Source: Planctomycetia bacterium (lineage in GTDB: Bacteria; Planctomycetota; Phycisphaerae; UBA1845; UTPLA1). Taken from it: 64,000 nucleotides of DNA. Made by a program: the position numbers and the translations under genes. The stretch covers positions 2,278,470-2,342,469 of the forward strand of contig CP054187.1 of NCBI GenBank assembly GCA_015200345.1, in the 5' to 3' direction. The notes beneath the pieces are model-generated. The model saw nothing but the letters and a program-made list of their open reading frames with translations. It was not told where the DNA came from and searched no databases. Below, piece by piece: positions 36,862 through 54,804 of the stretch. How positions within the stretch are numbered: position 1 is the first letter of the stretch; each line of letters begins with the position of its first letter.

Positions 36862-37865
36862 GGCGTCGTGTCCTCCAAATCGTTCCAGACGCCGCTGAAG
36901 ACTTCGACAGCCGGCCCGGTCTTGAATACGTGGCCGTGAATATTGACGCCTGGATTGGATTCATCGCTCGCGTCCGAACCGGGCCAGTCATGGCCCGGAA
37001 ATGCAGACGGGCGATCCGCCGCACGGCTGTGGCGGCTCGGACTTGTCGCGCTATCGCGCAACCATTCGATCTCCAGATCGCCGCCGGGCAGATGAAGCAG
37101 TGCCGTGGTGTCGAGGCGATCTTCCAGCACGCCGGCGACGAGGACGGCGCAGGCGCCGGTGCCGCAGGCCTGCGTGATGCCGCTGCCGCGCTCCCAGGTG
37201 CGCATGATGGCTTCGCGCCGCGAGAGGAGCTGTGCGAAGTGCGCGTTAACGCGATTGGGAAAAGCCGCGTGCCGTTCAATGAGCGGGCCGATGTGCGTGA
37301 GATCAACCGCGGCGACATCCTCGACAAAGAAGACCGCATGCGGATTGCCCATCGAGACGCAGGTCATGGTGAGGCGCTGCTCACCGACTTGCAGCGGTTG
37401 TTGGATGCAGCACTCGCCCGGCGCGGCCACGGGAATGTCGCGCGGGTTGAGAATCGGCGGACCCATGTCCACGCGCACGCGCTCAACGCGACCGCCGCGC
37501 AGAAAACAAGTCGTCTCCAGCACGCCGCGGTCGGTCTCGATGCAGATCGTTCGCGCGTCGCCGCCGCCTTGTTCCCGCCCCGCCAAGCCGTGCTCGATGG
37601 CGTACTTCGCAACGCAGCGGATGCCGTTGCCGCACATTTCGCCGCGCGAACCGTCGGCGTTGTACATTTCCATGCGCACATCGGCGGCAACACCAGGCCT
37701 CGGCGGGCCGATCAGAATGAGACCGTCCGAACCGATGCCGCGATGGCGGTCGCTCACGGCGCGCGCCAGCGGCGCGTGCCGCTCGACGGGGATCGGATGA
37801 CGGAACGCGTCTACGTATACGTAGTCGTTTCCGAGGCCGTGCATCTTGGTGAAGGGGATCGTCAT
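36858..37865 (-). CDS. dapF: Diaminopimelate epimerase with an extra insertion
   Basis: This 335-residue enzyme converts LL- to meso-diaminopimelate for lysine and peptidoglycan synthesis. Both catalytic cysteines are present (SRGEMCGNGIRC and TQACGTGACAV), as are the N-terminal FTKMHGLGNDYVYVD and C-terminal GHVFKTGPAVEVFSG. Between LEIEWLRDS and GHVFKTG there is an insertion of roughly 40 residues rich in Ser, Pro, Asp and His, which explains the excess over the usual 275. ATG 37865 is chosen over an upstream open extension into the pfaC gap. The presence of DapF argues for DAP-type peptidoglycan or at least lysine synthesis by this route. Confidence 0.95.
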   Translation of the reverse strand: MTIPFTKMHGLGNDYVYVDAFRHPIPVERHAPLARAVSDRHRGIGSDGLILIGPPRPGVAADVRMEMYNADGSRGEMCGNGIRCVAKYAIEHGLAGREQGGGDARTICIETDRGVLETTCFLRGGRVERVRVDMGPPILNPRDIPVAAPGECCIQQPLQVGEQRLTMTCVSMGNPHAVFFVEDVAAVDLTHIGPLIERHAAFPNRVNAHFAQLLSRREAIMRTWERGSGITQACGTGACAVLVAGVLEDRLDTTALLHLPGGDLEIEWLRDSATSPSRHSRAADRPSAFPGHDWPGSDASDESNPGVNIHGHVFKTGPAVEVFSGVWNDLEDTTP

Positions 37866-37960
37866 CTTGTCGTTGTGGTCAGAATCGCAAACCCGCAACC
37901 TGGCTGCCAGACGCCGCGACCAGGCCATCCGAGCTGGTTCAAGCCGCGCATGGCCCTTCA

Positions 37961-40900
37961 CTACATCGGCACGGCACGAATGCCGAAGTGCTTCATCTCG
38001 TAGATGATAATCCCGTCCACGCTCAAAAACCCGTCGGCCACAAGCAGCGGCGCGGGGCCGTTCTCGCGGCGGGTGATGGCGGCGGTGACTTCGACGTGCT
38101 TGTTTCGCGGGATGATCTGGCCGCGATATTGCCATTCGTGGGGCAGGCCGATGGCGATGGATTCGAAGCGATGGGTGTGAGCCAGCTCCGGCCAGCGATC
38201 GCGGGCATATACTTTGAGCAATTGCAGGAAGGATTCCAGCCCCAGCGAGCCGGGCCAGACCGGATCCTGGTAAAAGTGAGCCTTGAAGAACCATGCCGAA
38301 GGATCGACCGTCGTCGAGCCTGCGACATAGCCCAGACCGTGCGGTCCGCCATCGAGCAGCAGGGCATCGATGCGGTCGATCATGCGAAAAGCGCGGCCGG
38401 GCAGTGCGAGGCCTTCGCCGAGATCGCCACGAGTCTTGACCGCATCATCCGGCGTGAAGGGCGGATCATCGGGGAGATCAAACGGCGCGCGGCCGGCGGC
38501 GAGTTGTGCCGCGGTGGGAATGAATCGTCGCGCGGCGGCGTCGCGGATGCCGACCTGCTGTGCGAGCGCTGCGGCCGAGAAGAAGCCAAACGACGTATCG
38601 CCGGAGTAAATCAACTCATCGCCACGGCGCATCTCGAAATCGAATTTCTGAATAATCATGCCGCCGGCGCGGGAGACGCTGGTCATGCGCACGCGCGTCG
38701 TGAGCGTGGCCGGCTCTGCTAAAACCTCCATGTGCTGCACCGCGCGGCCGCCGAGATTGCGGAAGCTCAAATCGACATCGCTGGTCAGTGCGGATCCGCA
38801 ATAGGCGGCAAGCCAGCCGCAGGGTTGCAAAGCGATTTCGAGCAGCACGGCGAAGGGCATCGCGCGTTGTCGATTTGCTGCGACGTACCATGCGCCGGGT
38901 TGCGGCGCAGCGTCGTCCGCGATGGGCACATCGTACTCGGCCGTGATCCAGCCGCCCGGCTCCAGGACCCACGGCGGCGGCTCGATGTCGACGATGCGAT
39001 CAAGAAAGTGATACGGCGGTCCCGGCAGGCGTGCGATGCGTCGCTTTGAATCGAAGACGGCGTACGGCTCGCCGAATGCGTCCGAGGGTTTGCCGATGGC
39101 GAAAGCGAGGATGCGATCGGTGTCGTAGATCGCGGCGCGGCGACGCGGTTTCGCGATTGGAGTCGACGGATTGCGGTCCGTCGGTTTTGAGGACGGCGCG
39201 CGCTTCAAGGTCGGCGCCACGCGTGATCGCTCCCACGTCGATTCAATTCGCTTGCGCGAAAGGCCCGTGACCTGCAACGACATGTTATCCATGCGCACGA
39301 TGCGTTTTTCGTCAGCATACAGGAGCGCATCGGCGAGCACGTACGGTGTCTGCGCGCCGTCGGCCTCGGCGCGATAGCCGATCTCTTTGACATGCAATTC
39401 GTATCGCACGGTTCGCGTTCTCGGCGTGACGGGACCGCGACATCGCAGGGCGCTGGCGATGCCGGGAATCGGCTCGTAGCAGACGCCGTCGCGCTCGCCG
39501 ACCCAGCCGAGCCGCAGCAGGAAAAACCGCAGCGTGTGCACGCAGCATTCGTACATCAGCGTGCCGGGCATGACCAGGTCATCCACAAAGTGGCACGTCA
39601 GATACCAATCGTCGGGCTGCACGTCGGCCTCGGCGATGACGAGACCCAACCCAAAGCGCCCGCCGCACAGATCGAGCGTCGTTACGCGATGAATGAGCGT
39701 CATGCGCCCGTCGGGCAGTCGCAGTGGATCGCGGAGCGACAGCGAATCAAACGGCGCGCCGAAACAACCGGCCAGATCGCCGCGCCGCAGTGCTTCGAGT
39801 TGCGCGTCGCCGAACGACTGCGGCGCCTCTTGCGACACGAGCGGGGCAAAGCCGCCGGCGACGCGGCCGCCCGACGGTGCTTTGTCTTCTGCGGTCAACA
39901 CAATGCCGTGCGAGTTTTCGATCTCCTGCGCCGTGAAGAAACCGGCGCAGCCGTCGCGCATGGTGAGAACGGTCTGCCCGTCAATCGTGCCGTCGAACCG
40001 GAAGAAGAACAGATACGTCTCGCCCTGGCGGACGAAGCGATCGATGGTGATGTCGTAACGGATCGTCTCGCCGGGCCGAGGCAGGCCACGGTGAAAGGTG
40101 ACCGTCGCGTCGAGCAGGCGATACGCGCGAACGCCCTTCGCTACGAAATCAATGCCGAGGTAGCCGGAGAGAAAGAGATCGGCCTGGCCTGCTTCGACGG
40201 TGATGCTGATCGGTGCGCGATCGCCGTCGAGGTACCACGCGCCGGGCAACACATCGTGCTCGGTGACAACGCGGCCGTGCGTGAGCGAGCCTTTCTCGCC
40301 TTCGATTTCGAGGATTCGGTCGACGAGCATGAGCGGCTCGTCGGGCAGGCGCACGCGGACGGGGTAGGTGTCGACGACGGCGAACTCGGGGCCGAGGACG
40401 TTCGCGGCGCGGCCGACGGCGAATTCAAGACACTTGGCGCGATCCAGCAGCGGAGGCGGCGTGCTTGTCGCTGCTGCGTCCGTCGGGGAGCGCCACGCCG
40501 CGGTCGAAACGGAAGACGGTCCCTGCTCGTCGCGAAGTTGCGAAGAACCAGCGAGCAGACGCGCATAGTCGTCCATGGCGGTGCGCGAGAATCGCAGAAA
40601 GGTCTCGTGCGCTTGCGACGCGGCATGGGTCACGTCGCGATGGGACGCGATCAACCCCGCATCGCACGGCGCGGAAAACGACGACGCCCTCTCACGGGTT
40701 TCCGCGGTCGCGACCAGGGCCGGCGCGGCGAGACGGCGAGCCGTCGGCAATCGCGGCTTGCCCAGCCGTACGCCGACCGGAACGCGAACCGTCGTGTCAG
40801 GGCGAGACGTGACCGACTCGATTCGTTGCCGATGGATTGGGGCGCCGTCTGATTCAAACAATGGCCTGAAGTCAATCGGCACGCCCTCCGTGTAAAGCGA

Positions 40901-43900
40901 CGCCAGCAGGTGAATGAACTCGCCGACTTCGTCCTCGCCGCGCGGCACGGCCGACCGCGCCCAGTGGGGTCGATCGGCCAGTGTGCGGCCGATCATCCGC
41001 GTGCAGGAGGCCAGCGGACCGATTTCGATGAATCGGCGCACGCCGTCGGACCAGGCTCGTTCAATGAGCGCGGGAAAGTCGAAGCCTGCCATCGCTTGGC
41101 GCGTGATGGATTCGGCGGCGCTGGCACGCGTCACTTCGTACGGCGCGGCCGCCGCCGCGCTGTAAAAGCGCACGCCGGCCGGTGGAGTTGCGTCAAGCAA
41201 ATGAATATCGCGATACGCCTGCTCGACCGATTTCGCCGCGTCGCAATGCACCGCCGGCACGCCGGCCAGCGCGACCCCGCGGCAGCGAAGTGCCTTCATC
41301 GCGGCATCCACGTCCGGGCGCAGGCCGCCAATGACGCACTCGTCGGGCGTGTTGACGATCAGCAGTCGCGCACGGAGCGGCCGGCCCTCGCGCTCGGATT
41401 CGACCAGCGCCTTGCGCACGGCGTCGGCAGATCGCGGCACAACGACCGCGCGCCAGTCGATTTCCAGGTCACCCGGCAGCCCCCAACTTCGGCGCAGGGC
41501 GTCATAGGGCGGGCCTAACTCCGAACCAAACAGTGGCGACGCCGACATCCGGCGAAGCATCTCATCGGGCGTTCGCCATGCGCGCGAGGCAAAGAGGCCG
41601 ACCGATTCGCCGAGGCTGTAGCCGATGACGGCGCGAGGGCGAACCCCGAAGGCCGCCAGCAGATCCGTGACCGCCATGCCGAAGCCGACCTGTCCGAAGA
41701 TCGGACGGCGCAGATCGGCGGAGATCTTACGCTCGAATTCCCGCTGCGCGGCGTCGTCGGAGAAACGCCACGGCGCGAACCAGTCGATCATCATTAGCGA
41801 GGCGGCGCGCTGGGAATCGCGCTCCAGAGCGGCGAGCGCCGACGGGAACGCGTTAAGCAACGCGCTGCCCATGCCGAGGTAGTGATTGCCGGAACCGGGA
41901 TAGACGAACGCGATATCGCTCGCGCGGCGATGTGCGGCGGGTGCGTAATAAACGCCATCGCGCCCGTCGAGCGCGGCGTCGGCATCGCGCGACAGCGCAG
42001 CCCGAGCGGCGTCGACCGCCCGGTGAATCGCCGGTGCATCCGAGGCGACCAAGGCGAGCCTTCGAATGTCGTCGGTCACGGAGATCGGCTTGGCGCGCGC
42101 AGCGGGGTCTGTGCGAGCGAACCATTGACGGGCGGCAAGATGCACATCGTTCCCGGCTTGCGCCGCGATCTGCGCCAGCTCGTCCAGTTGCGCGAGAAGT
42201 TCCGTCGCCGAAGCAGCGCACAGGCCGAAGATCGCCGGCGCGATCGTGCAAATCGGCCGAGGCGCGGTCGCCGCGTACTCCGGTCGGACAGGCTCTTCCA
42301 GCAAAATCGCGATGGATTCCCCGAGCGGCGACGAGGCCGAAGCGAGCGCGCGGCGAGGGCCTTCCGCACGATCGTGCGACCAATGAATCGGCCGCGCCAG
42401 GCAGCGCGAAGGATCGGCGAGATTGAGCGAGCCGGATGGAAGGGTCTTGTGGTGCAGCGCCAGCGCGGCACGAACGAGTGAGGCCATGCCCGTGGCAGCG
42501 CCGGCGGCACCGTGCGCGGCGCTCACGCTCCACGCGCCGCGCGGGCTGAAGCCTGCGGCTCGTTGGGCGGGCCAGGTACCCTGGGCGCGCGCGGAGGAAA
42601 ATTCGGTCAACAATGCGTAAACACGATCGCCGTCTCGCTCGGCATCGTCCAGGCGCTTGAGCACGACGGTTGCCGCGCCTTCGGCTACTGGCTTCGGGTC
42701 TTCACTGGTATCACGCCGTGATTGCGTCGTCGCCCAGGCGGCGCGCACGTCGCCGGCCAGATCGACGGCTCCCGCGACTGCGGCATCAATTTCGCCGCGC
42801 TGCAACATTCGCGCGGCGATCTCCACCGCTCGCAGGCCCGACGCTTCCTCGCATGAGACCGCAAAGCACGGCCCCCCAAACTGGAACTCCCGCGCAATGC
42901 GGCTGGCGATCATGCCACCCAGCGCGCCGACGGTTCGCGGCGCGTTTAACGCCGGACCGGTGGCGTTGCGCAGCTCGTCCAGCCACGATTCGAGCTGCTC
43001 TTCATCCAGCGTTAGCCCCAGGGCCTCCGCCCAGCGGCGCACCTGCCCCGCGAGCCACCAGCGCAGGTGAAAGTTCGTGGTCTCGAAATCCAGCGCCATG
43101 CCGACCAGCGCCGCCGTGCGAGGTCGGCGGCCGCGCATCGGCATCTTCGCATCGGCCAGCGCGGCGGCGACGGATTCAAGCATGACGAGCTGCTGCGGCA
43201 GAATCTCGGGCAACTCCGCCGGCGGAATGTGGTAACGCTTGATGGAAATATCGAGGTCGCGCAGGTAAGCGCCGCGCGCGGCCGATCGCGCAAGCCCTTC
43301 GCGAACAAGGTGGTCGAGATAATCTTCCACGCCGCGCCAGCGATTGGGCGGTCGCGTCCGCGCGGTCGCATCGCGTGCTGCTGGATCGTCTAAGAACATC
43401 GCGCGGGTGAATGCGTCGAGGGATTCGCACCGCCCGAATCGCGCGTCCATACCGACGATGGCAACGGGCGGTTCAATCGCAGGCGTCGCGGCGATTGACC
43501 CGGCGAGAACCGGAGCGGCCTCGACGACGTCTTCCTCGATCAGCACATGCGCGTTAATGCCGCCGAAGCCGAAGGCGCTGACGGCCGCGCGACGCGGCGT
43601 CGGTTCCGCGCGGCGATTCCAAGGCTCGGGCGCGGCGAGCACGCGAAACGGCGAATCGGCAAGCGGGCTGTTCGGCGAGGCGCGCGTGAAGTTCGCAGAA
43701 GGCGGCAGCACGCCCTCGCGCATCGCGAGCAGCACCTTGATCAGCCCGGCCGCTCCGGCCGCAGTCAGCAAATGCCCGACGTTGGACTTGACCGATCCGA
43801 TCGGCACGGGCGCTTGCGACCCCGGCACATCGGCCCACAGCGTGCGCAGCGACGCCAGCTCGACGGCATCCCCCGCGGGCGTGCCGGTTCCGTGGCACTC

Positions 43901-44890
43901 AACAAGGTCAAGATCCGCCGGCGACCAGCCCGCCTGCTCGTAAGCAGCGCGCATCGCGCGAAGCTGCCCCTCGCTGTCGGGCGCGAGCAGGCTGCCGCCG
44001 ATATCGTTGGACAGGCCGATCCCGCGAATGACGGCGTAGATGCGGTCGCCGTCGCGACGGGCGTCGTTCAGCCGCTTCAACAGGACGATCCCCGCGCCTT
44101 CGCCGACGACCAGCCCATCGGCGGATTCATCGAACGGCGCGCAACGTCCGCTTGCCGACAACGCCCGCAATTGCGAGAAGCCCATCTGCGTATAGAGGCA
44201 TTCGGGGCGCGACACGCCGCCGGCCAACATCGCGTCGGCGCGCCCGGACGCCAGTTCCTCGCACGCGAGCTTGAGCGCATATAGCGACGACGCGCAGGCC
44301 GCATCGAGCGTGTAGGCACAACCACCCAGGCCGAGGGCTTCACCCAGCAGCGCGGCGGGCAGGCCGACGGCGGCGGCGTTCAATGGGTGCGGCGATTCGC
44401 TCGATGGAATCACCGTGTCCGCGGCGCGCCCGAGGACGCTTTGTGCGAACGCCCGGCCGATGATTTCGCGCGTGATGGCCGACGCGCCGTCGGTGGGCAG
44501 GGCGATGGCGGCGAGGATCACGCCAGTGCGTGCGCGATCGACTGGTCGGCTGGCCGGCGCGGCGTCCTCCAGTGCGTCGCGGCCCGCATGCAGCACGAAG
44601 TGGTAGAGCGGATCAAGTCGCTCCAGCGCTTCGCGCAGGTCGGGAGCAAGCGTCAGCCCGCGCGGATCAAGGCGAAAATTCTCGACGTAACACGCGCGAA
44701 GCGAATAGACTTTGTCGGGCGCGGGTCCGTCGGCCAGGGCATCCTTCGGATCGAGAATCCATCGACCGGGCGGCACCTCGCGCGCGGCATCGGTGCGCTG
44801 CACGATGTTGCGCCAGAAATCGGCGAGCGACGCCGCGCCGGGGAAGACGCCGCCGATGCCGACAATTGCAATCGGGACCGAAGCACTCAT
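37961..44890 (-). CDS. pfaC: PUFA synthase-like megasynthase subunit PfaC (KS-CLF-AT-DH-DH)
   Basis: This 2309-residue protein is part of an iterative secondary-lipid synthase. In order: a ketosynthase (about 1-455; Cys-199 in LDAACASS, His-333 in ECHGTGT, His-373 in NVGHLL); a chain-length-factor-like second KS (about 475-870) whose active-site Cys position is Glu (VSCEEASG); an acyltransferase (about 990-1340; FVYPGSGNHYLGMG and GYSLGES); and two FabA-type dehydratase didomains (about 1500-1860 and 1940-2300), four hotdog folds in all, with catalytic His in CHFVDDLVMPG and AHFYQDPVWPG. In Shewanella PfaC the AT is not fused. The fused KS-CLF-AT-DH-DH order recalls myxobacterial Pfa3, but no acylglycerol-phosphate acyltransferase follows here. 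It starts 21 bp after pfaA. Confidence 0.93.
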   Translation of the reverse strand: MSASVPIAIVGIGGVFPGAASLADFWRNIVQRTDAAREVPPGRWILDPKDALADGPAPDKVYSLRACYVENFRLDPRGLTLAPDLREALERLDPLYHFVLHAGRDALEDAAPASRPVDRARTGVILAAIALPTDGASAITREIIGRAFAQSVLGRAADTVIPSSESPHPLNAAAVGLPAALLGEALGLGGCAYTLDAACASSLYALKLACEELASGRADAMLAGGVSRPECLYTQMGFSQLRALSASGRCAPFDESADGLVVGEGAGIVLLKRLNDARRDGDRIYAVIRGIGLSNDIGGSLLAPDSEGQLRAMRAAYEQAGWSPADLDLVECHGTGTPAGDAVELASLRTLWADVPGSQAPVPIGSVKSNVGHLLTAAGAAGLIKVLLAMREGVLPPSANFTRASPNSPLADSPFRVLAAPEPWNRRAEPTPRRAAVSAFGFGGINAHVLIEEDVVEAAPVLAGSIAATPAIEPPVAIVGMDARFGRCESLDAFTRAMFLDDPAARDATARTRPPNRWRGVEDYLDHLVREGLARSAARGAYLRDLDISIKRYHIPPAELPEILPQQLVMLESVAAALADAKMPMRGRRPRTAALVGMALDFETTNFHLRWWLAGQVRRWAEALGLTLDEEQLESWLDELRNATGPALNAPRTVGALGGMIASRIAREFQFGGPCFAVSCEEASGLRAVEIAARMLQRGEIDAAVAGAVDLAGDVRAAWATTQSRRDTSEDPKPVAEGAATVVLKRLDDAERDGDRVYALLTEFSSARAQGTWPAQRAAGFSPRGAWSVSAAHGAAGAATGMASLVRAALALHHKTLPSGSLNLADPSRCLARPIHWSHDRAEGPRRALASASSPLGESIAILLEEPVRPEYAATAPRPICTIAPAIFGLCAASATELLAQLDELAQIAAQAGNDVHLAARQWFARTDPAARAKPISVTDDIRRLALVASDAPAIHRAVDAARAALSRDADAALDGRDGVYYAPAAHRRASDIAFVYPGSGNHYLGMGSALLNAFPSALAALERDSQRAASLMMIDWFAPWRFSDDAAQREFERKISADLRRPIFGQVGFGMAVTDLLAAFGVRPRAVIGYSLGESVGLFASRAWRTPDEMLRRMSASPLFGSELGPPYDALRRSWGLPGDLEIDWRAVVVPRSADAVRKALVESEREGRPLRARLLIVNTPDECVIGGLRPDVDAAMKALRCRGVALAGVPAVHCDAAKSVEQAYRDIHLLDATPPAGVRFYSAAAAAPYEVTRASAAESITRQAMAGFDFPALIERAWSDGVRRFIEIGPLASCTRMIGRTLADRPHWARSAVPRGEDEVGEFIHLLASLYTEGVPIDFRPLFESDGAPIHRQRIESVTSRPDTTVRVPVGVRLGKPRLPTARRLAAPALVATAETRERASSFSAPCDAGLIASHRDVTHAASQAHETFLRFSRTAMDDYARLLAGSSQLRDEQGPSSVSTAAWRSPTDAAATSTPPPLLDRAKCLEFAVGRAANVLGPEFAVVDTYPVRVRLPDEPLMLVDRILEIEGEKGSLTHGRVVTEHDVLPGAWYLDGDRAPISITVEAGQADLFLSGYLGIDFVAKGVRAYRLLDATVTFHRGLPRPGETIRYDITIDRFVRQGETYLFFFRFDGTIDGQTVLTMRDGCAGFFTAQEIENSHGIVLTAEDKAPSGGRVAGGFAPLVSQEAPQSFGDAQLEALRRGDLAGCFGAPFDSLSLRDPLRLPDGRMTLIHRVTTLDLCGGRFGLGLVIAEADVQPDDWYLTCHFVDDLVMPGTLMYECCVHTLRFFLLRLGWVGERDGVCYEPIPGIASALRCRGPVTPRTRTVRYELHVKEIGYRAEADGAQTPYVLADALLYADEKRIVRMDNMSLQVTGLSRKRIESTWERSRVAPTLKRAPSSKPTDRNPSTPIAKPRRRAAIYDTDRILAFAIGKPSDAFGEPYAVFDSKRRIARLPGPPYHFLDRIVDIEPPPWVLEPGGWITAEYDVPIADDAAPQPGAWYVAANRQRAMPFAVLLEIALQPCGWLAAYCGSALTSDVDLSFRNLGGRAVQHMEVLAEPATLTTRVRMTSVSRAGGMIIQKFDFEMRRGDELIYSGDTSFGFFSAAALAQQVGIRDAAARRFIPTAAQLAAGRAPFDLPDDPPFTPDDAVKTRGDLGEGLALPGRAFRMIDRIDALLLDGGPHGLGYVAGSTTVDPSAWFFKAHFYQDPVWPGSLGLESFLQLLKVYARDRWPELAHTHRFESIAIGLPHEWQYRGQIIPRNKHVEVTAAITRRENGPAPLLVADGFLSVDGIIIYEMKHFGIRAVPM

Positions 44891-44911
44891 GGTTTCGTCA
44901 TCGAGGCCGGA

Positions 44912-47900
44912 TCAGACCGTCAGGCCGATCGGTGATTGTTTGCGGAACGCGGCGGACAGGCCGGCGTCGACGGTGCACTGATAGCCGTCGATCCGCGCGA
45001 CGATCGTGCCGTGGTGGTCGCTGAAAACGAAGTCGGCGGTGACGCGGGCGCGAGACGACTCGGTCACACGCAGGGTCACGCGAACGCCATCGCGGGGGAA
45101 TCGCGCGTGATACTGGCGATACGCGGCCAGCCCGCTTGGCAGCGACAGCGCGGACAACTCCTCGTGGCACCAGAGAATCGCCAGTTGAAACGCGGCGTCG
45201 ATCGCCAGCGGGTCGGTGAGCCATTCACCGCGAATCGGCTGGGCCATCCACTCGCGCGCGTTTGGGGCGGTCCGCACGTCGGCGACCAGGCCGCGTGGCG
45301 AGATGCCGGAGATCGCCTGTATCGCGCGGAAATGCTCGCCGTGGAAAAGGACCTTTCCATAGGCCGCGTCGATCGCCAGCGAGAACGGGCGTTCGGAAAG
45401 AGTCTCGATTGTGGCGCGATCGTCGCTGGCCGGCGCCGGCCGGGCGCTGGCCAGCACGGCCTGGGCGCGGGCGTGCAGAATTTCGCGGTCGCCTCGGCCG
45501 ATGGAGCGCATCTCAACCGGCACGACAAATTCGCCGCCGCGCTTCGTCGGCGCGCCGGTCAGCCAGTGCAACGTGCGGGCACCGCCGTCCAGCACGACGC
45601 CGCGAAGAATACGAAAATCTTCAATTCCCCCCAGCACGAGGCCGGGGTTGGCGTGAATGGCCGCCTGGCCCAGCCATTCCATCGTGACGGCGGCCGGCAG
45701 GACCGGATGCCCATCGAGCAGGTGCGAGCGGAGGAACGGATGGCTCTCGATGTCGATGCGGCGATTAAACGCGGGACGCATGTCGGCGTCGGTGGCGTCC
45801 GCCGCGCGTCGTGTCTGCGCCGGCATTTCGAAGCCGTCGCCGAGAATGACTTCCACGGCATCGGTCGGACCGATGCATTCGCGCACCATGGCCCGCGCGC
45901 CGGCGTCGAGCGGAATCAGCGACACGCCGCGCTGGGCGAAGGCGCGCTTGAGGCCCTCGTTGACCATGCCGCCGTCCCACGGGCCCCAGTTGATCGCGCA
46001 GACGCCGGCATGCGGCAGGCGCGCGGCGAGCCGGCGGGCGACCTTGTTCAGCACTTCATTGGCGGCGGCGTAGTCGGCCTGACCGGCGTTGCCGAATCGA
46101 CCCGCGACGGACGAGAAGAGAATGATCTGCCGCAGTTCGTTCGTATCCAGCGCACCGAGCAGCGACGCCAGCCCGCGCACCTTGGTGTCATACACGCGGG
46201 CGAACTGTTCGTCGGTCTTGTCCTCCATGCGACGATCTTCCAGCACGCCCGCGGCGTGAATCAACCCGCGAATCGGCCCCCACTCACGCCGTATGCGCTC
46301 GATCAAGGCACGGGTCGCCGCGGCGTCGCGCACATCGACCGACTCGTATCGCACGCGCGCCCCGGCTGCGATGAGGCGGGCGAGCGTGGTCCGAATCTCG
46401 CGCTGCGCCAGGTGATGCTCATACGCGGCGCGCAGCTCGCGCGGCCCGACGCGCTGACCGGCGAACGCGTTCGTCGCGATGGCCTGCTTGATCGACGCCT
46501 CGTCGCTTAATCCGTGCAGCCAGGCCGGCTCATCCGTCGGAACAGGCGAGCGCCCCAGGAGCACCAGTGCCGGTTGCACGGCCAGCGCGAGCGCTTCGGC
46601 CGCCGCCGCGGTGACCCCGCGCGCTCCGCCGCTGATCACGACCACGTCGCCGGGGTGCAGCGAGGGCTTTGCCTCCATTGCCGGCGCATCGGCGAGTTCA
46701 GGCACAACGCGCCCCGCAGCCGACAGACCGACCTCGATTTCATCGCCGCACCGCAGCTCCGTCGCCAGGGCGTCGGCGGCCGCGTCGGCCTCCAAGTCTG
46801 GCGCGATGTCAATCGCGCGACACCAAACGCCGGGCCATTCATGCGCTGCCGTCTTGAGGATGCCCGCCAAGCCTGCCTGCGCCGCGTCGAAGTCGCCGCC
46901 GGTCAGGCCGAACCGGCCGTCCATTCGCGTAACGCACGCGAGCAAGGCGCCTCCCTCCTTCACGGCGGCCTGGAGCGCGGGCGCGGCACGACGAACGAGC
47001 GCAAAGAGATTTCGCGTGGCTTGCTCGGTCTCGCTGCACCAGAGCGGCGCGCCGGGATGGGTCGGAGGAAGCGTGAGAATCAGCGCGGACGGGTTCGCGG
47101 GCCATGCTGCGGCCGCCGAATCGTCGGGAGTACTCGAAACAACGTGAGCGGCGAAACCGTCCGAGCGAAGCCGGTCGGCAAGGCGATCCGCCAGCTCGTC
47201 GCCTGCGCCAACAATCCAGATCGTCGCGCCGTTCGGCACGCGCCAGGCGCGATCGGCGGGCGCGGAGGACTCCCGCGCGACTAGGACGCGACGCCGAAGT
47301 CGCACCGGATCAGCCGCGCTCGGCGCGGCTTCAGCACGCGGCGCTGCCGGTTGAGTGACTTCACGCGATCCGGCTTGTTGCGTCGAGGATGCGTTCGCAA
47401 TGCCGCCCCCCTGCGAGGCGAAATAATCGACGATCTGCGCCAGCGTGCGAAGGCTGCCCATGTACTCGGGTTTGACCGAGGCGACATCGGGCAGGCGACC
47501 CTCGACCGCCGCGAGGATTTCGACCCGTTTGATCGAGTCGATTCCGAGATCGGCTTCCAGGTCCATGCCGAGATCGAGCATGTCGCGCGGGTAGCCGGTG
47601 AGCTGCGCCACGACGTCGAGCAGGACGGTCGAAAAGACGGACGTCGTTGATGAGTCCGGCTCGTCGGAAGCGGGCGAGGCTGACGAGCTTGCCGCGGCGT
47701 CGTGGGCGGTCGCCGGCGTGGTCGGCCGGCTCGGCTCGCTCCTGACCGATGAATCGCCTGCGGGCGCGTTCAGGCTCGACTCCACGAACGCGAGAATCTC
47801 GCGCAGCGTGCGGATGCCGCCCATGTATTCCGGCTTGATGCCGCCGAACGCCGGGATGCGCTCCTCGATGGCCGCGACGATCTCCACGCGCTTGATCGAG

Positions 47901-50900
47901 TCGATGCCGAGGTCGGCCTCGATGTCCATGTCCAGCTCGATCATGTCGCGCGGGTATCCGGTTTTTTCGCAGACGACCTCCAGCACGACATTCTCATGGG
48001 ACGCAGACGCGGTGGGGGCCGCCGCGGTCCGCGCGAGCGTCGAAATTGGTTGGGCCACGGGCGCGATCGGTGCGGCAGCGGGGCCGGGTGCGGTGGGCGT
48101 GGCCGGCGCGACGGGCGGCGGAAGATGCGAACCGGTCGTCATGGGAACAGCCTGTGCGGAGCTGTTGGTTGGCGTCGCCGCGCGAGCGATCGACAGCGCG
48201 AGCGATGGAGCCGGAGGCGATGGTGGCGGTGCGTTCATTGGCGTGGCCGACGGCGCGCCGGCGAGAAGTCGACCGTGCGTTTCAAGGAGTTGCACAAACG
48301 CGCGGTGGGCTTGTTCCTGCCCTTCGAGGAATCGCTGGTGTGCCGCGGCGGTTTGCTGTTGCAGCGCCTGCATGGCTTGCAACCCCTCGCGAAGCAAGTG
48401 CGCCGCGTCTGAAGCTGGGGCCGCAGGTGCATGATGGCGCTGCGCGGTCGGCGCGGCGGAATGAAAATGCTCGTTCATGGTTGTCTCGATCTTCTTTGTA
48501 TTCGGTGCAACGGGCGATGCCGCTGCGGCTGCGGGTATTGATCGTGCCGGTATGGTCGGCGTCGGTGAAGGCGTCGGCGTTCGCGGCGCGGCGGATGACG
48601 CGAGTGGACTAAGTTGCGTGGGCGCGGCGGCGGCGGCCGATGGTTTCGACGGCGAACGCGCGGAGCCTTGATCGGATTCGGTCTTTCGTGGTGCGCGGTA
48701 ATTCGCGCCGGTCAGCGGGATGATCATGCGCGGCGTACGCGGCTCGGGCGTTTCGCGTTCCCATTTCGTCAGGTCAACACGGCGGCCCTGCGCGGCCAGC
48801 TGCGCCAGAACACAGGCGAGATGAAACATTCCGTCGCGGCCGGTCGGCGCATCCATCGCCAATCGCGTGTGCGGTCGATCGCCGAGCGTCGCCTGGACCA
48901 GGCCAGACAAGACCTGCTTCGGTCCGACTTCGACAAAGGTATCAACGCCGGCGTCGGTCAGCCCTCGCACCACGGCGATGAAATCGACCGGCGACGTAAG
49001 CTGCTCTCCCAGCACGGCCCGCGCCGCTGCTCCGGCGGGGTACAACGCACCCGTTGCACCGGCCAGCACCGGCACGCGCCCCGCCGCGAACGCAACGGCT
49101 TCCAGTGCCTGCCGAAAGGGTGCCGCAGCCGATTGCATGAGTGGGCTGTGAAACGCGCCGGAAACTTCCAGTGCTTTCGTCGCCCAGCCTCGCGCCTTGC
49201 ACGCCTGGGCCGCCGCGGCCACGGATTCACGCGCGCCGGAAAGCACCGCCTGCGCCGGCGCATTGCGATTCGCCAGCACCACATCCAATCGCTCGGCTTC
49301 GATGAGCGATGCGATCTCGTTGACGGGTGCTTTCACCGCAAGCATCGCGCCGCGCCCGCCGTCGCCCGCGGCCATCAGCCGACCGCGCAACCGGGCGAGC
49401 CGATGCATCGTTGCTTCGTCGTAGCGACCGGCGACGCACAGCGCGACCAATTCGCCGAAGCTGTGGCCCGCGAGCAGATCGGGCGCAACGCCGTACCGCT
49501 CCAGCACGCGCGCCATGCCGAGCGAGACGGCCCCCAGCGCGGGCTGGGCATGCTCGGTCTGGTTCAGCTCGCGTGCGGCGGCCGACTTCGCGGCGTCGTC
49601 CAGCGGCCCGCGCGGGTAAATCAGATCACTGATGCGCGGGTCAGATTCATCGGCTGCGGCCTCCGCCGACTCCAGCGATGCGATCAACTCGGGAAACGTG
49701 CATGCCAGATCGCGCCCCATGCCGAGATGCTGACTGCCCTGACCGGGGAACAGGAACGCCAGCTTGCCGACGGGTCGCCCCGTGCCATGCCAAAACGTCG
49801 CAGGCCGCTTGTGCGGCGCACGCCGGCCGGAATCACGGCCTTCGCCGAGATCGATCCGCAGGCGAGCGTCGTTCAATAGCGCAGCGAGATCGTCGCCGGT
49901 CTCCAGGACCATCGTCAGGCGATGCGCGTGCTCGTGGGAGAAAGCCTTGCGTGAACGTCCGGCGAGGTGTGCGATCCACGCGGGTGACGAGCGGCCGGCG
50001 CGCACGTGCTTCGACCAATCCTCCAATTGTTCGCGCAGTCCGGCGGGTGATTCGCTCGACAGCGCGATGATCTGCGCCGAGCCGTCCCACGCCGGTTCGG
50101 CCAGTGCGCCGGGCGCGGCTTCCAGCAACGCGTGAAAATTGCTGCCGCCGAAGCCGAACGAGCTGACGCCCGCGCGGCGCGGACGGCCACGCCGAGCCAC
50201 CCACGGGCGCAATTCGGTGTTGATATAAAAAGGACTTGTGTCGATATCCAGCTTCGGATTGGGCCGGGCGACCTTGATCGTCGGCGGAAGTGCGCGGTGA
50301 TGGATCGCCAGGGCCGCCTTGATCAGCCCCGCTGCGCCGGCCGCCGCTTTTGTATGGCCGATCTGCGACTTCACCGAGCCGACGGCGCACCAGCGCGCGT
50401 CGGCGTCGCTTGCCGCCTCGCGATACACGCCCGACAGCGCGTCGAACTCGACCGCGTCGCCGACTTTCGTGCCCGTGCCGTGGGCTTCGATCAACTCAAC
50501 GTCGTGCGGCGCAAGCCCGGCAATCTTGTACGCATTGCGCAGCGCCCGGGCCTGGCCGGCGGCGTGCGGGGCGTAAATGCTCTGCGAGCGGCCGTCACTG
50601 GATGTGCCGATGCCGCGGATGACGGCATAGATTCGATCGCCGTCACGCTGGGCGTCGGGCAGGCGCTTCAGCACGAGCATGCCGATCCCCTCGCCGAGGA
50701 CCGTGCCATCGGCGTCGTCGGCGAAGGGCCGCGCGTCGCCCGTCGGCGAAAGCGCCGGCGTCTTGCTGAAGCACATATACATGAAAATATCGTTCAGGGT
50801 ATCGACGCCGCCGGTGAGCGCCAGATCACAGCGCCCCGTGGCCAGCTCCATCATGGCGAGGTGCGCGGCGCTCAACGAGCTGGCGCAGGCTGCATCGACC

Positions 50901-51523
50901 ACGCAGTTTGTCCCGCGCAAATTAAGACGATTGGCGATTCTACCGGCCACCACGTTGCCCAACAGGCCGGGGAACGAATTCTCCTGCCAGCTCACGTACG
51001 CGTCGGAAATTTTCGCCAGCGCCGCCTCAGCCTGATCGGCCGGCACGCCCGCCTCGGCCAGCGCTCGCCGCCAGATCGGATGACCCAGCCGCGCGCCCAG
51101 CGGCAGCGCCAACTCCTGCAAGCCGGTTACGCCGAGAATGACGCTCGCCCGCTCGCGATTGAACTCGCGCGACTCGCCGTAGCCCGCGTCCTCCAACGCC
51201 GCCTTCGCAACGACGAGGCTCAACAGTTGCGACGTGTCGGTCGCTTCGAGAATCGTCGGCGGGATGCCGAACTCTGTCGGGTCGAACTCCGTCGGCGAGA
51301 GAAACCCTCCGCGCCCGCAATACGTAAAGTCCGGCCGCTTCGGATCCGGGTCGACGTAGTCGGCGATGGACCAGTGGGTCGGCGGCGTCGGCGTGATCGC
51401 GTCGTCTCCGCGGCGCAGCAGCCGCCAATAGGCGCGGATGTCCGCCGACTTGGGGAACATGCAACCCATGCCAATGATGGCGATGGGCTGGGAGGGTTTG
51501 TCCGACGTTCGCACGCTGTTCAT
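44912..51523 (-). CDS. pfaA: PUFA synthase-like megasynthase subunit PfaA (KS-AT-ACP-ACP-KR-DH)
   Basis: This 2203-residue protein has, in order: a ketosynthase (about 12-470; Cys-213 in VDAACASS, His-348 in EAHGTGT, His-390 in IGHTKAA); an acyltransferase (about 588-900; FLFPGQGSQ, GHSFGE); a Pro/Ala linker with a Gln-rich coiled-coil-like helix (about 1040-1090); two nearly identical acyl carrier domains with phosphopantetheine serines at about 1209 and 1330 in DLGIDSIKRVEI; a ketoreductase (about 1430-1890; VVISGGARGVTAA, FSSVAGRFGNAGQADYAAAN); and a PS-DH domain (about 1905-2190; SHPFLRSHLLDG, DPLAIDAAFQL). The core order matches PfaA of PUFA and other secondary-lipid synthases, but two ACPs is fewer than the five to nine usual in EPA/DHA synthases. 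A TATAAT box lies 111 bp upstream. Confidence 0.94.
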   Translation of the reverse strand: MNSVRTSDKPSQPIAIIGMGCMFPKSADIRAYWRLLRRGDDAITPTPPTHWSIADYVDPDPKRPDFTYCGRGGFLSPTEFDPTEFGIPPTILEATDTSQLLSLVVAKAALEDAGYGESREFNRERASVILGVTGLQELALPLGARLGHPIWRRALAEAGVPADQAEAALAKISDAYVSWQENSFPGLLGNVVAGRIANRLNLRGTNCVVDAACASSLSAAHLAMMELATGRCDLALTGGVDTLNDIFMYMCFSKTPALSPTGDARPFADDADGTVLGEGIGMLVLKRLPDAQRDGDRIYAVIRGIGTSSDGRSQSIYAPHAAGQARALRNAYKIAGLAPHDVELIEAHGTGTKVGDAVEFDALSGVYREAASDADARWCAVGSVKSQIGHTKAAAGAAGLIKAALAIHHRALPPTIKVARPNPKLDIDTSPFYINTELRPWVARRGRPRRAGVSSFGFGGSNFHALLEAAPGALAEPAWDGSAQIIALSSESPAGLREQLEDWSKHVRAGRSSPAWIAHLAGRSRKAFSHEHAHRLTMVLETGDDLAALLNDARLRIDLGEGRDSGRRAPHKRPATFWHGTGRPVGKLAFLFPGQGSQHLGMGRDLACTFPELIASLESAEAAADESDPRISDLIYPRGPLDDAAKSAAARELNQTEHAQPALGAVSLGMARVLERYGVAPDLLAGHSFGELVALCVAGRYDEATMHRLARLRGRLMAAGDGGRGAMLAVKAPVNEIASLIEAERLDVVLANRNAPAQAVLSGARESVAAAAQACKARGWATKALEVSGAFHSPLMQSAAAPFRQALEAVAFAAGRVPVLAGATGALYPAGAAARAVLGEQLTSPVDFIAVVRGLTDAGVDTFVEVGPKQVLSGLVQATLGDRPHTRLAMDAPTGRDGMFHLACVLAQLAAQGRRVDLTKWERETPEPRTPRMIIPLTGANYRAPRKTESDQGSARSPSKPSAAAAAPTQLSPLASSAAPRTPTPSPTPTIPARSIPAAAAASPVAPNTKKIETTMNEHFHSAAPTAQRHHAPAAPASDAAHLLREGLQAMQALQQQTAAAHQRFLEGQEQAHRAFVQLLETHGRLLAGAPSATPMNAPPPSPPAPSLALSIARAATPTNSSAQAVPMTTGSHLPPPVAPATPTAPGPAAAPIAPVAQPISTLARTAAAPTASASHENVVLEVVCEKTGYPRDMIELDMDIEADLGIDSIKRVEIVAAIEERIPAFGGIKPEYMGGIRTLREILAFVESSLNAPAGDSSVRSEPSRPTTPATAHDAAASSSASPASDEPDSSTTSVFSTVLLDVVAQLTGYPRDMLDLGMDLEADLGIDSIKRVEILAAVEGRLPDVASVKPEYMGSLRTLAQIVDYFASQGGGIANASSTQQAGSREVTQPAAPRAEAAPSAADPVRLRRRVLVARESSAPADRAWRVPNGATIWIVGAGDELADRLADRLRSDGFAAHVVSSTPDDSAAAAWPANPSALILTLPPTHPGAPLWCSETEQATRNLFALVRRAAPALQAAVKEGGALLACVTRMDGRFGLTGGDFDAAQAGLAGILKTAAHEWPGVWCRAIDIAPDLEADAAADALATELRCGDEIEVGLSAAGRVVPELADAPAMEAKPSLHPGDVVVISGGARGVTAAAAEALALAVQPALVLLGRSPVPTDEPAWLHGLSDEASIKQAIATNAFAGQRVGPRELRAAYEHHLAQREIRTTLARLIAAGARVRYESVDVRDAAATRALIERIRREWGPIRGLIHAAGVLEDRRMEDKTDEQFARVYDTKVRGLASLLGALDTNELRQIILFSSVAGRFGNAGQADYAAANEVLNKVARRLAARLPHAGVCAINWGPWDGGMVNEGLKRAFAQRGVSLIPLDAGARAMVRECIGPTDAVEVILGDGFEMPAQTRRAADATDADMRPAFNRRIDIESHPFLRSHLLDGHPVLPAAVTMEWLGQAAIHANPGLVLGGIEDFRILRGVVLDGGARTLHWLTGAPTKRGGEFVVPVEMRSIGRGDREILHARAQAVLASARPAPASDDRATIETLSERPFSLAIDAAYGKVLFHGEHFRAIQAISGISPRGLVADVRTAPNAREWMAQPIRGEWLTDPLAIDAAFQLAILWCHEELSALSLPSGLAAYRQYHARFPRDGVRVTLRVTESSRARVTADFVFSDHHGTIVARIDGYQCTVDAGLSAAFRKQSPIGLTV

Positions 51524-51769
51524 TCAGGGGTCCGACTTCGGAAAGTGCGTAAAGTGCCTGGCCGATCCGGGCAGGTCTTTTGTGAAAGGGGGAAGTATAA
51601 GGGAAAGCACGCCCGGACTGTATCGGATGCCGTCATTATAAAACATTGAGAAGAACAAGCTTATGGCTGCGGACAGAATTGGAAGGCGCGAATTGCCAAC
51701 AGCGAAATGACCGGTATTCGAGCGTTCTCGCCGTCAAGGGAGCTTTCGCAAGATGCTCCTCGCACGTCG
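51524..51769. other. pfaD-pfaA intergenic region
   Basis: This 246-bp gap is less GC-rich than its surroundings and contains a perfect TATAAT. No open frame with coding character or RNA gene is visible. Confidence 0.5.
51635..51640 (-). promoter_or_regulatory. -10 box upstream of pfaA
   Basis: A perfect TATAAT on the minus strand in a local AT-rich patch, with no strong -35 at the usual spacing. It would give a leader of about 105 bases and let pfaA-pfaC be transcribed separately from ispH-pfaD. Confidence 0.45.
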
Positions 51770-53800
51770 TTATTCAGCCAGAATTCCCTGCACGTCCGCC
51801 AGTTCCATCGGCTCGAAGCGCCCCAGGTCCGGCGCGATCTCCACGCCCTGCGCCCGCAGCCAGTTCACGCGCGTCAGCACCGCCGCGCCCAGCATCAAGT
51901 TCATTGCCACGGCCACCACGGTTCGATTCTGCCAGCGCTCAAGGCACGAGCCACGCGCCCATTCGTTGAACGCGCCCATGGCCGGGCCGCACCAGATCTG
52001 GTAGTCCGCCTTGCGCGTCGGCTCGCCGGCGTTCGCCCATTTTGACGCTTGTCCAAGATAAGACCGGAAGACCAGGGCCATGCGATGCTTGGGGTCGGCC
52101 TCGGCGCGAGCGATCTGCGACGGGTCGCGCTTCTCGAAGAACGCGCGGGTCTGATCCCACGCCTGTTCGAGCGAGCAGCGGAAGAAGTCCCGCTCCAGCG
52201 CCGTGCGATGCGCCGCGGGCAGCGAATCGAGGCTTTCGTATTGACGATACAAATCGTAAAGCCTGCGGGCGCGCATGGCGAACATCGTGCCGAACTTCAA
52301 AACCTGCACCTTCACGCCCATCTCGAACATGTCGGCCGCCGGAGCCATCGTCACGTCGGCCTGCGACGCCTTCGCCAGCATCTCGCGCACCGCATCGGAC
52401 GTGCCCGCCTCGACGCACGCCTGATTGACCGAGCCGGTCAGCACGAAGGCCGCGCCCATCGCGAAGGCCGCCGCCGCCGCCGCGGGCGTGCCGATGCCGC
52501 CGGCCGCGCCGAGGCGCAGCGATCGGTCGTATTCAAACTCGGCCTGCAACTCGTCACGCAGGGCCATCATCGTCGGCAGAAGCGCAAGCGACGGACGGTT
52601 ATCCGTGTGCCCGCCCGAGTCAGCCTCGACAATGAGGTCTTGCGCCACGGGAATGCGCATCGCCCATTGGGCTTGCTCGGCGGTGATATCGCCGGACGCA
52701 ACGAGTTTGTTGAGCATGGCTTCGGGCGGGGGCGAGAGAAACTTCCGAGCGACTTCCACGCGCGAGACCTTTCCCAGCACGCGGTTCGGACAAATCACAC
52801 GGCCTTCCGCGTCGCGCGCGATGCCGCTGACCCGGTAGCGCACCAGTGGGAGTGTGAGATCGAGGTAGGCCGACGCATCGACGACGCGCACACCGCGTTT
52901 CAGGTAGAGATCGACCACGGCGGCTTCGAGGTCCGGCTCGCTCGGGCTGTGGATGAGATTGAAGCCAAACGGTCGACCGGGTAGCACTGCTTGCACGTGG
53001 TCGATGGCGCGGGCGACGCGGTCGACGCTCAATCCGGCCGCGCCGAAGAAGCCCATCATTCCGGCGCGTCCCATCGCTTCAACGAGTTCGACCGAGGCGA
53101 TGCCGTTGGCCATTGCGCCGGCGAGGTAGGCGTATTCCAATCCGTAGTCATGCCGGAACGAGGGATCGCCCAGCATTGAAGGGTGCAGCGCCGGAGCAAG
53201 GGCAAAAAGCGGCAGGACCTGTTCGCCGGCGCTCGATGTGGAATCAATCGGCACGGTCGTGCCGAGTGTGCAGACACCGTCCACCGCGAGCGCGATGCGC
53301 TCGCCGTGCACCACCACGGCGATCGGCGAGTTGACTCGGCGCAGGGCCTGACGCACGTCATGCGGCTCCCACACCGGTTGCCTGCCGGACGATCGCCACC
53401 AACCGCGCACGAGCGGCGCGGCGGCGGAGCACGGTTCGCGAATCGGCTTGGACGCGGGCTTGGCCGGTGCCGATTCGTCGAGTGGTGTGACGGCATCGGG
53501 CGCCTCGGAAGCGACACCGTGCGGCATGGCAGCGGCTTGCGGAGGCCATGAAGCGTTCCCATCGCGCAGCGGCAGCGCCCGCGCCGCGCGCACGCCCAGA
53601 TCTATCAGTACGTTGGCCCCGGCGAAGATCGTCCCCAGCGCCAGCCGCGCGCCGGATCGCGCCGTGTTCGCCGCCGCCGACAACGCATCACGACTTGTGT
53701 CGATAACGCCCGAGGCCATGGAAGACACCAAGCCGCTGCCGCTCGACGGTTCGCGCCGCACGGGGGAGACCTGCTCATGGGATTGGTCAGGATTGCCCAT
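51770..53800 (-). CDS. pfaD: PfaD-type enoyl reductase with N-terminal extension
   Basis: This 676-residue protein is the trans-acting FMN enoyl reductase of PUFA and trans-AT polyketide systems. The TIM-barrel core runs from about residue 150, with YGLEYAYLAGAMANGIASVE, FGFNLIHSPSEPDLEAAVVD, IVEADSGGHTDNRP and LGAAGGIGTPAAAAAAFAMG. The C-terminal part (RKADYQIWCGPAMGAFNEW) is diagnostic for the family. The usual length is about 540 residues. Here an N-terminal extension of roughly 130 residues includes an Ala/Ser-rich amphipathic stretch (TSRDALSAAANTARSGARLA) of unknown role. ATG at 53800, 23 bp after ispH. It should reduce enoyl intermediates carried on the PfaA ACPs. Confidence 0.93.
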   Translation of the reverse strand: MGNPDQSHEQVSPVRREPSSGSGLVSSMASGVIDTSRDALSAAANTARSGARLALGTIFAGANVLIDLGVRAARALPLRDGNASWPPQAAAMPHGVASEAPDAVTPLDESAPAKPASKPIREPCSAAAPLVRGWWRSSGRQPVWEPHDVRQALRRVNSPIAVVVHGERIALAVDGVCTLGTTVPIDSTSSAGEQVLPLFALAPALHPSMLGDPSFRHDYGLEYAYLAGAMANGIASVELVEAMGRAGMMGFFGAAGLSVDRVARAIDHVQAVLPGRPFGFNLIHSPSEPDLEAAVVDLYLKRGVRVVDASAYLDLTLPLVRYRVSGIARDAEGRVICPNRVLGKVSRVEVARKFLSPPPEAMLNKLVASGDITAEQAQWAMRIPVAQDLIVEADSGGHTDNRPSLALLPTMMALRDELQAEFEYDRSLRLGAAGGIGTPAAAAAAFAMGAAFVLTGSVNQACVEAGTSDAVREMLAKASQADVTMAPAADMFEMGVKVQVLKFGTMFAMRARRLYDLYRQYESLDSLPAAHRTALERDFFRCSLEQAWDQTRAFFEKRDPSQIARAEADPKHRMALVFRSYLGQASKWANAGEPTRKADYQIWCGPAMGAFNEWARGSCLERWQNRTVVAVAMNLMLGAAVLTRVNWLRAQGVEIAPDLGRFEPMELADVQGILAE

Positions 53801-53823: not shown

Positions 53824-54804
53824 TCACCCGCCGAGCACCTTCAGCGAGACGCCGCGCTTCTGCTCCACGGCTTCCCGCAATTGCGGCGGGATCTGAAAGA
53901 CCGTGTCTTCCTCGGCCGTCGTGCAAAGCTCGACCCCGCCGGCCCCCAGCGACGCCAGCCGATCCAGCACGCCGCGCACGACCGATTCGGGCGTGCTGGC
54001 CCCCGCCGTGACGCCGACAAGTGTCGCGTTTGTGACCCAGGCCGGGTCGATCTGGTTCGCCCCGTCAATCAGGAAGCCGCGCACGCCCCGCGCCGCGCCG
54101 ACCTCCACCAGCCGCGCCGCGTTGCTGCTGTTGCGCGAGCCGACGACCAGCAGCAGGTCCATCCCGCGGCGGGCCATCTCCTTCACCGCGTCCTGCCGGT
54201 TCTGGGTCGCGTAGCAGATGTCGTCGGTCGGCGGAAGTTCCAGGCTTGGAAATCGCGCGCGCAGGGCATTCAGCACGCCGGCCGTATCGTCCACGCCGAG
54301 CGTCGTCTGGGTGAGTACCATGAGTTTGTCGTGCGGCGGAAACTCGACCGTTCGGGCGTGCGCTTCGTTCTCGACAAGTGTAATCTTCCCCGGCGCTTCG
54401 CCCATCGTGCCGATCACCTCGTCGTGCCCGGCGTGGCCGATCAGCGCGATGTGATAGCCCTGCCGCACAAAGCGATGAACTTCCAGGTGCACCTTCGTGA
54501 CCAGCGGGCAGGTCGCGTCGATCAGCCGCAGACCGCGCGATCGCGCTTCGTCGAATACGCTCGGCGCGACGCCGTGCGCCGAAAGAATGGCGACCGCGCC
54601 GACCGGCGCTTCGGACAATTCCTCGATGAACACGGCCCCCTTGCCGCGCAGATCGGCGACGACGTGGCTGTTGTGCACGATCTCCCGCCTCACATAGACC
54701 GGCGGGCCGAACGCCTCCAGCGCCAGATCGACGATCTTCACCGCGCGATCGACGCCGGCACAGAACCCGCGGGGATTGGCAAGGAGGACGTTCATCGATT
54801 GCAT
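53824..54804 (-). CDS. ispH: 4-hydroxy-3-methylbut-2-enyl diphosphate reductase
   Basis: This 326-residue 4Fe-4S enzyme catalyses the last MEP-pathway step, making IPP and DMAPP. The three cluster cysteines are seen in NPRGFCAGVDRA, LIDATCPLVTKVH and DDICYATQNRQ. The active-site loop SRNSSNAARLVE and GVTAGASTPE are also present. Two ATG codons are possible. ATG 54795 (MNVLLANPRGF) fits the family better, and a TATCAT box just upstream of 54804 would put transcription start between the two. It precedes pfaD by 23 bp on the same strand. Confidence 0.96.
   Translation of the reverse strand: MQSMNVLLANPRGFCAGVDRAVKIVDLALEAFGPPVYVRREIVHNSHVVADLRGKGAVFIEELSEAPVGAVAILSAHGVAPSVFDEARSRGLRLIDATCPLVTKVHLEVHRFVRQGYHIALIGHAGHDEVIGTMGEAPGKITLVENEAHARTVEFPPHDKLMVLTQTTLGVDDTAGVLNALRARFPSLELPPTDDICYATQNRQDAVKEMARRGMDLLLVVGSRNSSNAARLVEVGAARGVRGFLIDGANQIDPAWVTNATLVGVTAGASTPESVVRGVLDRLASLGAGGVELCTTAEEDTVFQIPPQLREAVEQKRGVSLKVLGG

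Follow-up and report, generated by a model that had tools for sequence, protein, structure and literature searches.

Type I secondary lipid synthases (Shulse and Allen 2011) are relatives of the polyunsaturated fatty acid (PUFA) synthases in which PfaB is fused into PfaC, an arrangement described from Geobacter, Pelobacter, Desulfuromonas and the planctomycete Gemmata obscuriglobus (PMC3098273). They were proposed to feed the olefin-forming ole pathway, and Geobacter bemidjiensis makes a 31:9 hydrocarbon (PMC3098273). In Shewanella, OleA takes 16:4 chains from the acyl carrier proteins (ACPs) of the Pfa synthase, a direct hand-over proposed from co-expression work (PMC6463001), while 31:8 and 31:9 hydrocarbons have been reported from members of the Planctomycetes (PMC2649909). 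Here we analyse a pfaD-pfaA-pfaC cluster in a 64,000-nucleotide stretch of contig CP054187.1 (positions 2,278,470 to 2,342,469; hereafter the window), part of the 3.88 Mb single-contig genome of a Planctomycetia bacterium of the Phycisphaerae (assembly GCA_015200345.1). As judged from its domains and family assignments, the cluster is a complete, ordinary Type I (pfaBC-fusion) PUFA-type synthase of a kind already known. With a probability of roughly 0.8, its chains would be joined head to head by OleABCD, yielding a long polyunsaturated hydrocarbon similar to hentriacontanonaene (31:9).

The synthase and its domains

The cluster consists of three intact frames, all on the minus strand, whose parts are as follows (window coordinates; KS, ketosynthase; AT, acyltransferase; KR, ketoreductase; DH, dehydratase; CLF, chain-length factor).

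51770 to 53800, minus strand: pfaD, FMN enoyl reductase of the PUFA synthase, 676 amino acids (TIGR02814, 664 bits; PDB 6lkc, 590 bits)
44912 to 51523, minus strand: pfaA, KS-AT-ACP-ACP-KR-DH, 2203 amino acids (TIGR02813, 1549 bits; Pfam domains)
50114 to 51490, minus strand: PfaA KS, residues 12-470, with the Cys in DAACASS, EAHGTGT and SVKSQIGH all present
48872 to 49765, minus strand: PfaA malonyl-type AT, residues 587-884, with GHSFGE and GAFHSP motifs
47489 to 47989, minus strand: two tandem PfaA ACPs, with DLGIDSIK at residues 1204 and 1325
45974 to 46642, minus strand: PfaA KR, residues 1628-1850 (Pfam domain)
44972 to 45784, minus strand: PfaA polyketide synthase (PKS)-type DH, residues 1914-2184 (PF14765, PF21089)
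37961 to 44890, minus strand: pfaC (pfaBC fusion), KS-CLF-AT-DH-DH, 2309 amino acids
43523 to 44890, minus strand: PfaC KS, residues 6-456; KS plus CLF match the ORF10 KS-CLF structure 6riw (440 bits)
42251 to 43468, minus strand: PfaC CLF, a KS-like region without the HGTGT motif
40853 to 41923, minus strand: PfaB-like AT inside PfaC, residues 990-1346 (TIGR02816; PDB PfaB 9ry8; GYSLGES)
37994 to 40393, minus strand: two FabA-like double-hotdog dehydratases of PfaC, with the H-x3-D-x3-PG motif (His/Asp at residues 1767/1771 and 2205/2209)

In the family-model search, PfaD and PfaA both clear the cut-offs of their models (664 versus 449 bits for TIGR02814 and 1549 versus 1010 bits for TIGR02813, respectively). 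The closest solved structures to PfaD, to the PfaC KS-CLF and to the PfaC AT, as found by PDB comparison, are all PUFA-synthase proteins; the 6riw structure comes from the Moritella docosahexaenoic acid (DHA) cluster. The AT within PfaC matches the PfaB model TIGR02816 below cut-off, and its closest solved structure is Shewanella PfaB (9ry8), at 104 bits versus 42 for the next. In its GYSLGES motif a tyrosine precedes the nucleophilic serine; a tyrosine at this position is conserved and critical in bacterial PfaB, whereas PfaA has a histidine there (PMC12895367). The domain layouts that a preliminary description had read from the letters of the window, including the placement of the PfaB function inside PfaC, are thus confirmed by family models, motifs and intact frames. 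Together, PfaA, PfaC and PfaD hold every catalytic domain required for iterative, anaerobic polyunsaturated acyl synthesis on the two PfaA ACPs.

A terminal acylglycerol-phosphate acyltransferase (AGPAT), noted as missing in that description, is indeed absent: a Pfam scan finds no Acyltransferase domain in PfaC, whose last FabA domain ends at residue 2299 of 2309. Such absence is the rule in the group, because just two of 87 checkable relatives run far past the last matched residue at the C-terminus. The PfaC proteins of two planctomycetes (L087, 2934-10610, and L100, 8082-15467; L and G numbers denote the loci and genomes compared) run on for about 700 amino acids past the last residue matched to the window PfaC, and the PfaD proteins of both loci fall outside the main Type I clade. 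The number of ACPs in PfaA ranges from one to six among relatives (two to four in Geobacter), two being commonest. PfaD carries an N-terminal extension of about 180 amino acids (window 53260-53800), giving 676 residues against about 550 in many relatives; same-family frames measure 653-719 amino acids, and a later start codon is possible.

Distribution and phylogeny of the synthase

Relatives of PfaC occupy at least 80 loci in a scan of 84,980 species genomes, and their labels span at least eight phyla: Planctomycetota, Thermodesulfobacteriota, Myxococcota, Pseudomonadota, Elusimicrobiota, Gemmatimonadota, Verrucomicrobiota and Sumerlaeota. The architecture, which had been called unusual, is that of the published pfaBC-fusion type of Geobacter and Gemmata (PMC3098273), widespread in species genomes. 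A likeness to myxobacterial Pfa3 had also been drawn; it holds only in part, the closest relatives identified being Type I clusters from planctomycetes, Geobacter and others.

In a PfaD tree of 70 rows, the window sequence shares a 44-row clade (support 96/95) with clusters from Geobacter and planctomycetes; the PfaD of Shewanella eicosapentaenoic acid (EPA) and thraustochytrid DHA synthases sits on a separate branch. A quick tree of the PfaC KS agrees, with the 6riw KS outside; the exact position of this Moritella sequence is not relied on because its branch is long. References for the Type A/B synthases were PDB sequences, used in place of Gammaproteobacteria clusters; a TIGR02816 search of a Gammaproteobacteria sample returned no free-standing PfaB, only two weak matches inside very long frames. 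The trees were built without the 2011 member sequences of G. bemidjiensis and G. obscuriglobus, and the KS comparison covers the KS of PfaC. KS phylogeny, the check proposed in the preliminary description, thus groups the PfaC KS with clusters from Geobacter and planctomycetes and away from the EPA and DHA synthases. It comes close to a clade of known product, that product being the 31:9 hydrocarbon of G. bemidjiensis (PMC3098273), a species itself absent from the trees.

The ole pathway as the probable outlet of the synthase

The genome encodes a full set of Ole proteins away from pfa. An OleA-type thiolase gene is found near 2.547 Mb, and oleB, oleC and oleD follow one another near 2.638 Mb (L058, 5441-9127). 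OleA has as its best PDB matches the OleA structures 3row and 3s21 (220 bits versus 74 for FabH types), scores 463 bits against NF006720, and retains the NACL, HQVG and GNIG motifs. OleC exceeds the cut-off of NF006754 (717 bits over 478). Olefin-pathway models are among the best matches of OleC and OleD, both under those models' strict cut-offs: 637 bits under 900 for the olefin beta-lactone synthetase model NF045786 and 382 under 580 for NF042422, respectively. OleB is haloalkane-dehalogenase-like and carries HDWGG. Because just the window had been examined, the preliminary description missed this likely outlet for the pathway.

In most relatives the two systems form one gene array. At eight planctomycete loci (L088, L089, L097, L098, L099, L101, L102 and L104), pfaD-pfaA-pfaC-oleA-oleB-oleC-(oleD) run contiguously on one strand. 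In the wider set, oleA directly follows pfaC in 57 of the 72 loci whose sequence continues for 1.5 kb or more past pfaC, mostly within 200 bases (among the matches listed), and the usual order there is pfaD-pfaA-pfaC-oleA-oleB-oleC-oleD. One Sumerlaeota locus (L171, 16812-22260) continues from pfaD-pfaA-pfaC-oleA-oleB-oleC-oleD directly into a HetI-like phosphopantetheinyl transferase (PPTase) gene. Four pfa-ole loci from metagenome-assembled genomes (L137, L144, L167 and L181) are titled Bordetella parapertussis, Candidatus Kuenenia stuttgartiensis or Akkermansia muciniphila; these titles look like mislabels and give no evidence for those species.

Co-occurrence across genomes tells the same story. 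Across 199 evenly sampled genomes of the phylum, with PfaD and OleC counted over cut-off, OleC is present in 31 of 32 genomes with PfaD versus 43 of 167 without (Fisher test, 8e-15, uncorrected for relatedness); among 198 genomes of the class the counts are 18 of 19 versus 8 of 179, likewise uncorrected. Only G072 and G234 have PfaD without OleC over cut-off. The association repeats within families, with one genome holding both and ten neither in f15, and one both and five neither in f46. The dependence is one-way: Ole is common without Pfa, and Pfa is rare without Ole. This is what would be expected were Ole the outlet of Pfa, and the asymmetry can be tested.

These counts bear directly on an alternative in which the synthase makes PUFA for membrane phospholipids, as EPA and DHA synthases do, while Ole works on ordinary type II fatty acid synthase chains. 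In Shewanella, Pfa gives rise to EPA phospholipids as well as to the 31:9 precursor (PMC6463001). Two AGPAT-family genes lie elsewhere in the window genome, ole is dispersed from pfa there, and many planctomycetes have OleC but no pfa, meaning that OleC can act on other chains. Yet pfa is almost never found without ole and shares one array with it in most relatives, PfaC has no AGPAT domain, and PfaD and the PfaC KS sit outside the EPA/DHA branch; on balance a phospholipid product is improbable. An AGPAT supplied in trans was considered as the outlet and rejected: of the two genes, one is an MFS-acyltransferase fusion, and neither is linked to pfa.

Predicted route to a polyunsaturated hydrocarbon

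By analogy with the enzyme families, the KS and KS-CLF would extend the chain with malonyl units delivered by the PfaA AT, and the KR, the dehydratase/isomerases and the PfaD enoyl reductase would keep cis double bonds in the chain. The PfaB-like AT within PfaC may act late, in long-chain acyl transfer. OleA would then take the finished acyl chain straight from the Pfa ACP and condense two such chains head to head; OleD would reduce the product, OleC close a beta-lactone, and OleB decarboxylate it. The predicted end product is a long-chain polyunsaturated alkene of the 31:9 kind, residing in the membrane. The prediction thus depends on chain extension, on the hand-over from ACP to OleA, and on conversion by OleD, OleC and OleB, each presumed from its family. 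Exact chain length and number of double bonds are not readable from sequence, and 31:9 is predicted as a product class only. There is also a small chance that this Pfa, with two ACPs, split from ole and lacking a dedicated PPTase, would make a chain unlike 16:4, leading to a hydrocarbon or free lipid not yet described.

Several observations weigh against the proposed Pfa-Ole route. The ole genes are not adjacent to pfa in the window genome, lying about 308 kb and 217 kb away; G234, of the same family as the window, has pfaD but no OleC over cut-off; the co-occurrence statistics are not fully corrected for relatedness; and a search of the genome turned up no dedicated Sfp-type PPTase. Furthermore, 31:9 has a source other than Pfa, since Desulfotalea psychrophila makes it despite a genome in which no PUFA pathway of the polyketide type was found (PMC2649909).

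The product, previously regarded as unknown and perhaps an envelope lipid, is accordingly less so: with oleA and oleBCD adjacent in most relatives, a hydrocarbon rather than an envelope phospholipid is indicated. A cluster of "unknown product" becomes a direct prediction, namely that Phycisphaerae-type planctomycetes make a polyunsaturated hydrocarbon dependent on both Pfa and Ole. Found over at least eight phyla, the pfaDAC-oleABCD array places the 2011 suggestion that Type I synthases feed Ole on much firmer ground, and would explain the reports of 31:9 hydrocarbons in planctomycetes. It is a more useful result than the window cluster itself.

Dispersal of the array and the flanking genes

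The window lineage has, by comparison of gene orders, merely dispersed pfa and ole genes that are contiguous in most relatives. Its flanks hold housekeeping genes:

53824 to 54804, minus strand: ispH (LytB), which adjoins pfaD in L145 and L142 too
36858 to 38294, minus strand: dapF as called, then ispF, cysS, ruvC, ruvA and ruvB, in an order identical in L145

The dapF call is over-long and overlaps the pfaC frame, the true start probably lying downstream of pfaC. In L145 and L180, ispH-pfaDAC is followed by dapF-ispF-cysS-ruvC-ruvA-ruvB as in the window, with no ole at the locus; both apparently belong to the window's own family, the L145 genome (G387) having the same OleC match as G310. L142 (Phycisphaerales UBA1845) reads ispH-pfaD-pfaA-pfaC-oleA with oleC on another contig, an arrangement that, from its gene order, is an intermediate state of dispersal; an identical OleC match suggests that its genome, G386, is the same as G370 of that order. 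Some other families of the order keep pfaD and oleC at a distance of about 17 kb (G292, G334). The simplest reading is that the oleBCD linkage would have been lost first and that of oleA later, the direction being inferred. Recent horizontal transfer into the species was rejected, because pfaD is present in seven of nine sampled family genomes and the ispH-pfaDAC-dapF-ispF-cysS-ruvCAB order is shared with L145.

The same neighbourhood speaks to whether the cluster might serve a dedicated specialised lipid or hybrid product unconnected to ole, such as a glycolipid alkyl chain of the hgl kind or a PKS hybrid. Synthases of the Pfa-like kind are indeed used for heterocyst glycolipids and for hybrid natural products (PMC3098273; PMC13291983). 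However, no glycosyltransferase, nonribosomal peptide synthetase or modular PKS stands beside pfaDAC, where the housekeeping neighbours are conserved in L145, and the window PfaC has two intact FabA-like dehydratases, which are missing from the hgl cluster. Such a product is very improbable. No thioesterase was found among the ten neighbouring genes scanned, which are part of the window's open reading frames.

Activation of the carrier proteins

The absence of a nearby PPTase, claimed earlier, holds for the whole window; the single PF01648 match in the genome is AcpS, at 1.249 Mb. The HetI-like PPTase of L171 found no match in the genome when used as a query, in a search run without a positive control. 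From these two results one could argue that the cluster is silent, its ACPs never being converted to the holo form. Against this, all three pfa genes are intact and their order is conserved in the family, and either AcpS itself or the C-terminal tail of another type I PKS, at 1.59 Mb, which weakly resembles a PPTase (AcpT model, E 2.4e-6), may serve; an inactive cluster is scarcely probable. This second iterative type I PKS (KS-AT-ACP-KR-DH; about 1.587-1.594 Mb; L054, 3722-10249 and 3313-3798, minus strand), besides its PPTase-like tail, adjoins a 4HBT_2 thioesterase and has a layout like that of enediyne-type PKSs. Elsewhere in the genome, L055 (8421-12066) encodes two FabF-like ketosynthases side by side, which may form a type II KS/CLF pair, together with an ACP and a FabZ-like protein.

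Comparison with known systems

The Type A/B EPA and DHA synthases of Shewanella and Moritella share all catalytic domains with the window cluster, including the best structural matches to PfaD, the KS-CLF and the AT; they differ in tree position and in having a free-standing pfaB, the AT of the window lying inside PfaC. Myxobacterial Pfa1-Pfa2-Pfa3 (Aetherobacter, Minicystis) have the same order of enoyl reductase, PfaA-like protein and KS-CLF-AT-DH-DH, and likewise no PPTase linked to the cluster. The window PfaC, in contrast, has no C-terminal AGPAT, and no test placed the cluster with Pfa1-3. The Shewanella Pfa plus oleABCD system (PMC6463001) offers the same logic of Pfa plus Ole, with OleA, B, C and D all in the genome, although its Pfa is of Type A, with a separate pfaB, and makes EPA as well. 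The Type I secondary lipid synthase differs from the window cluster in that the latter has only two ACPs and its ole genes at two other places in the genome. The two agree in the pfaBC fusion, the separate PfaD, the occurrence in planctomycetes, the co-occurrence with ole, and the grouping of the window PfaD and PfaC KS with the Geobacter clusters.

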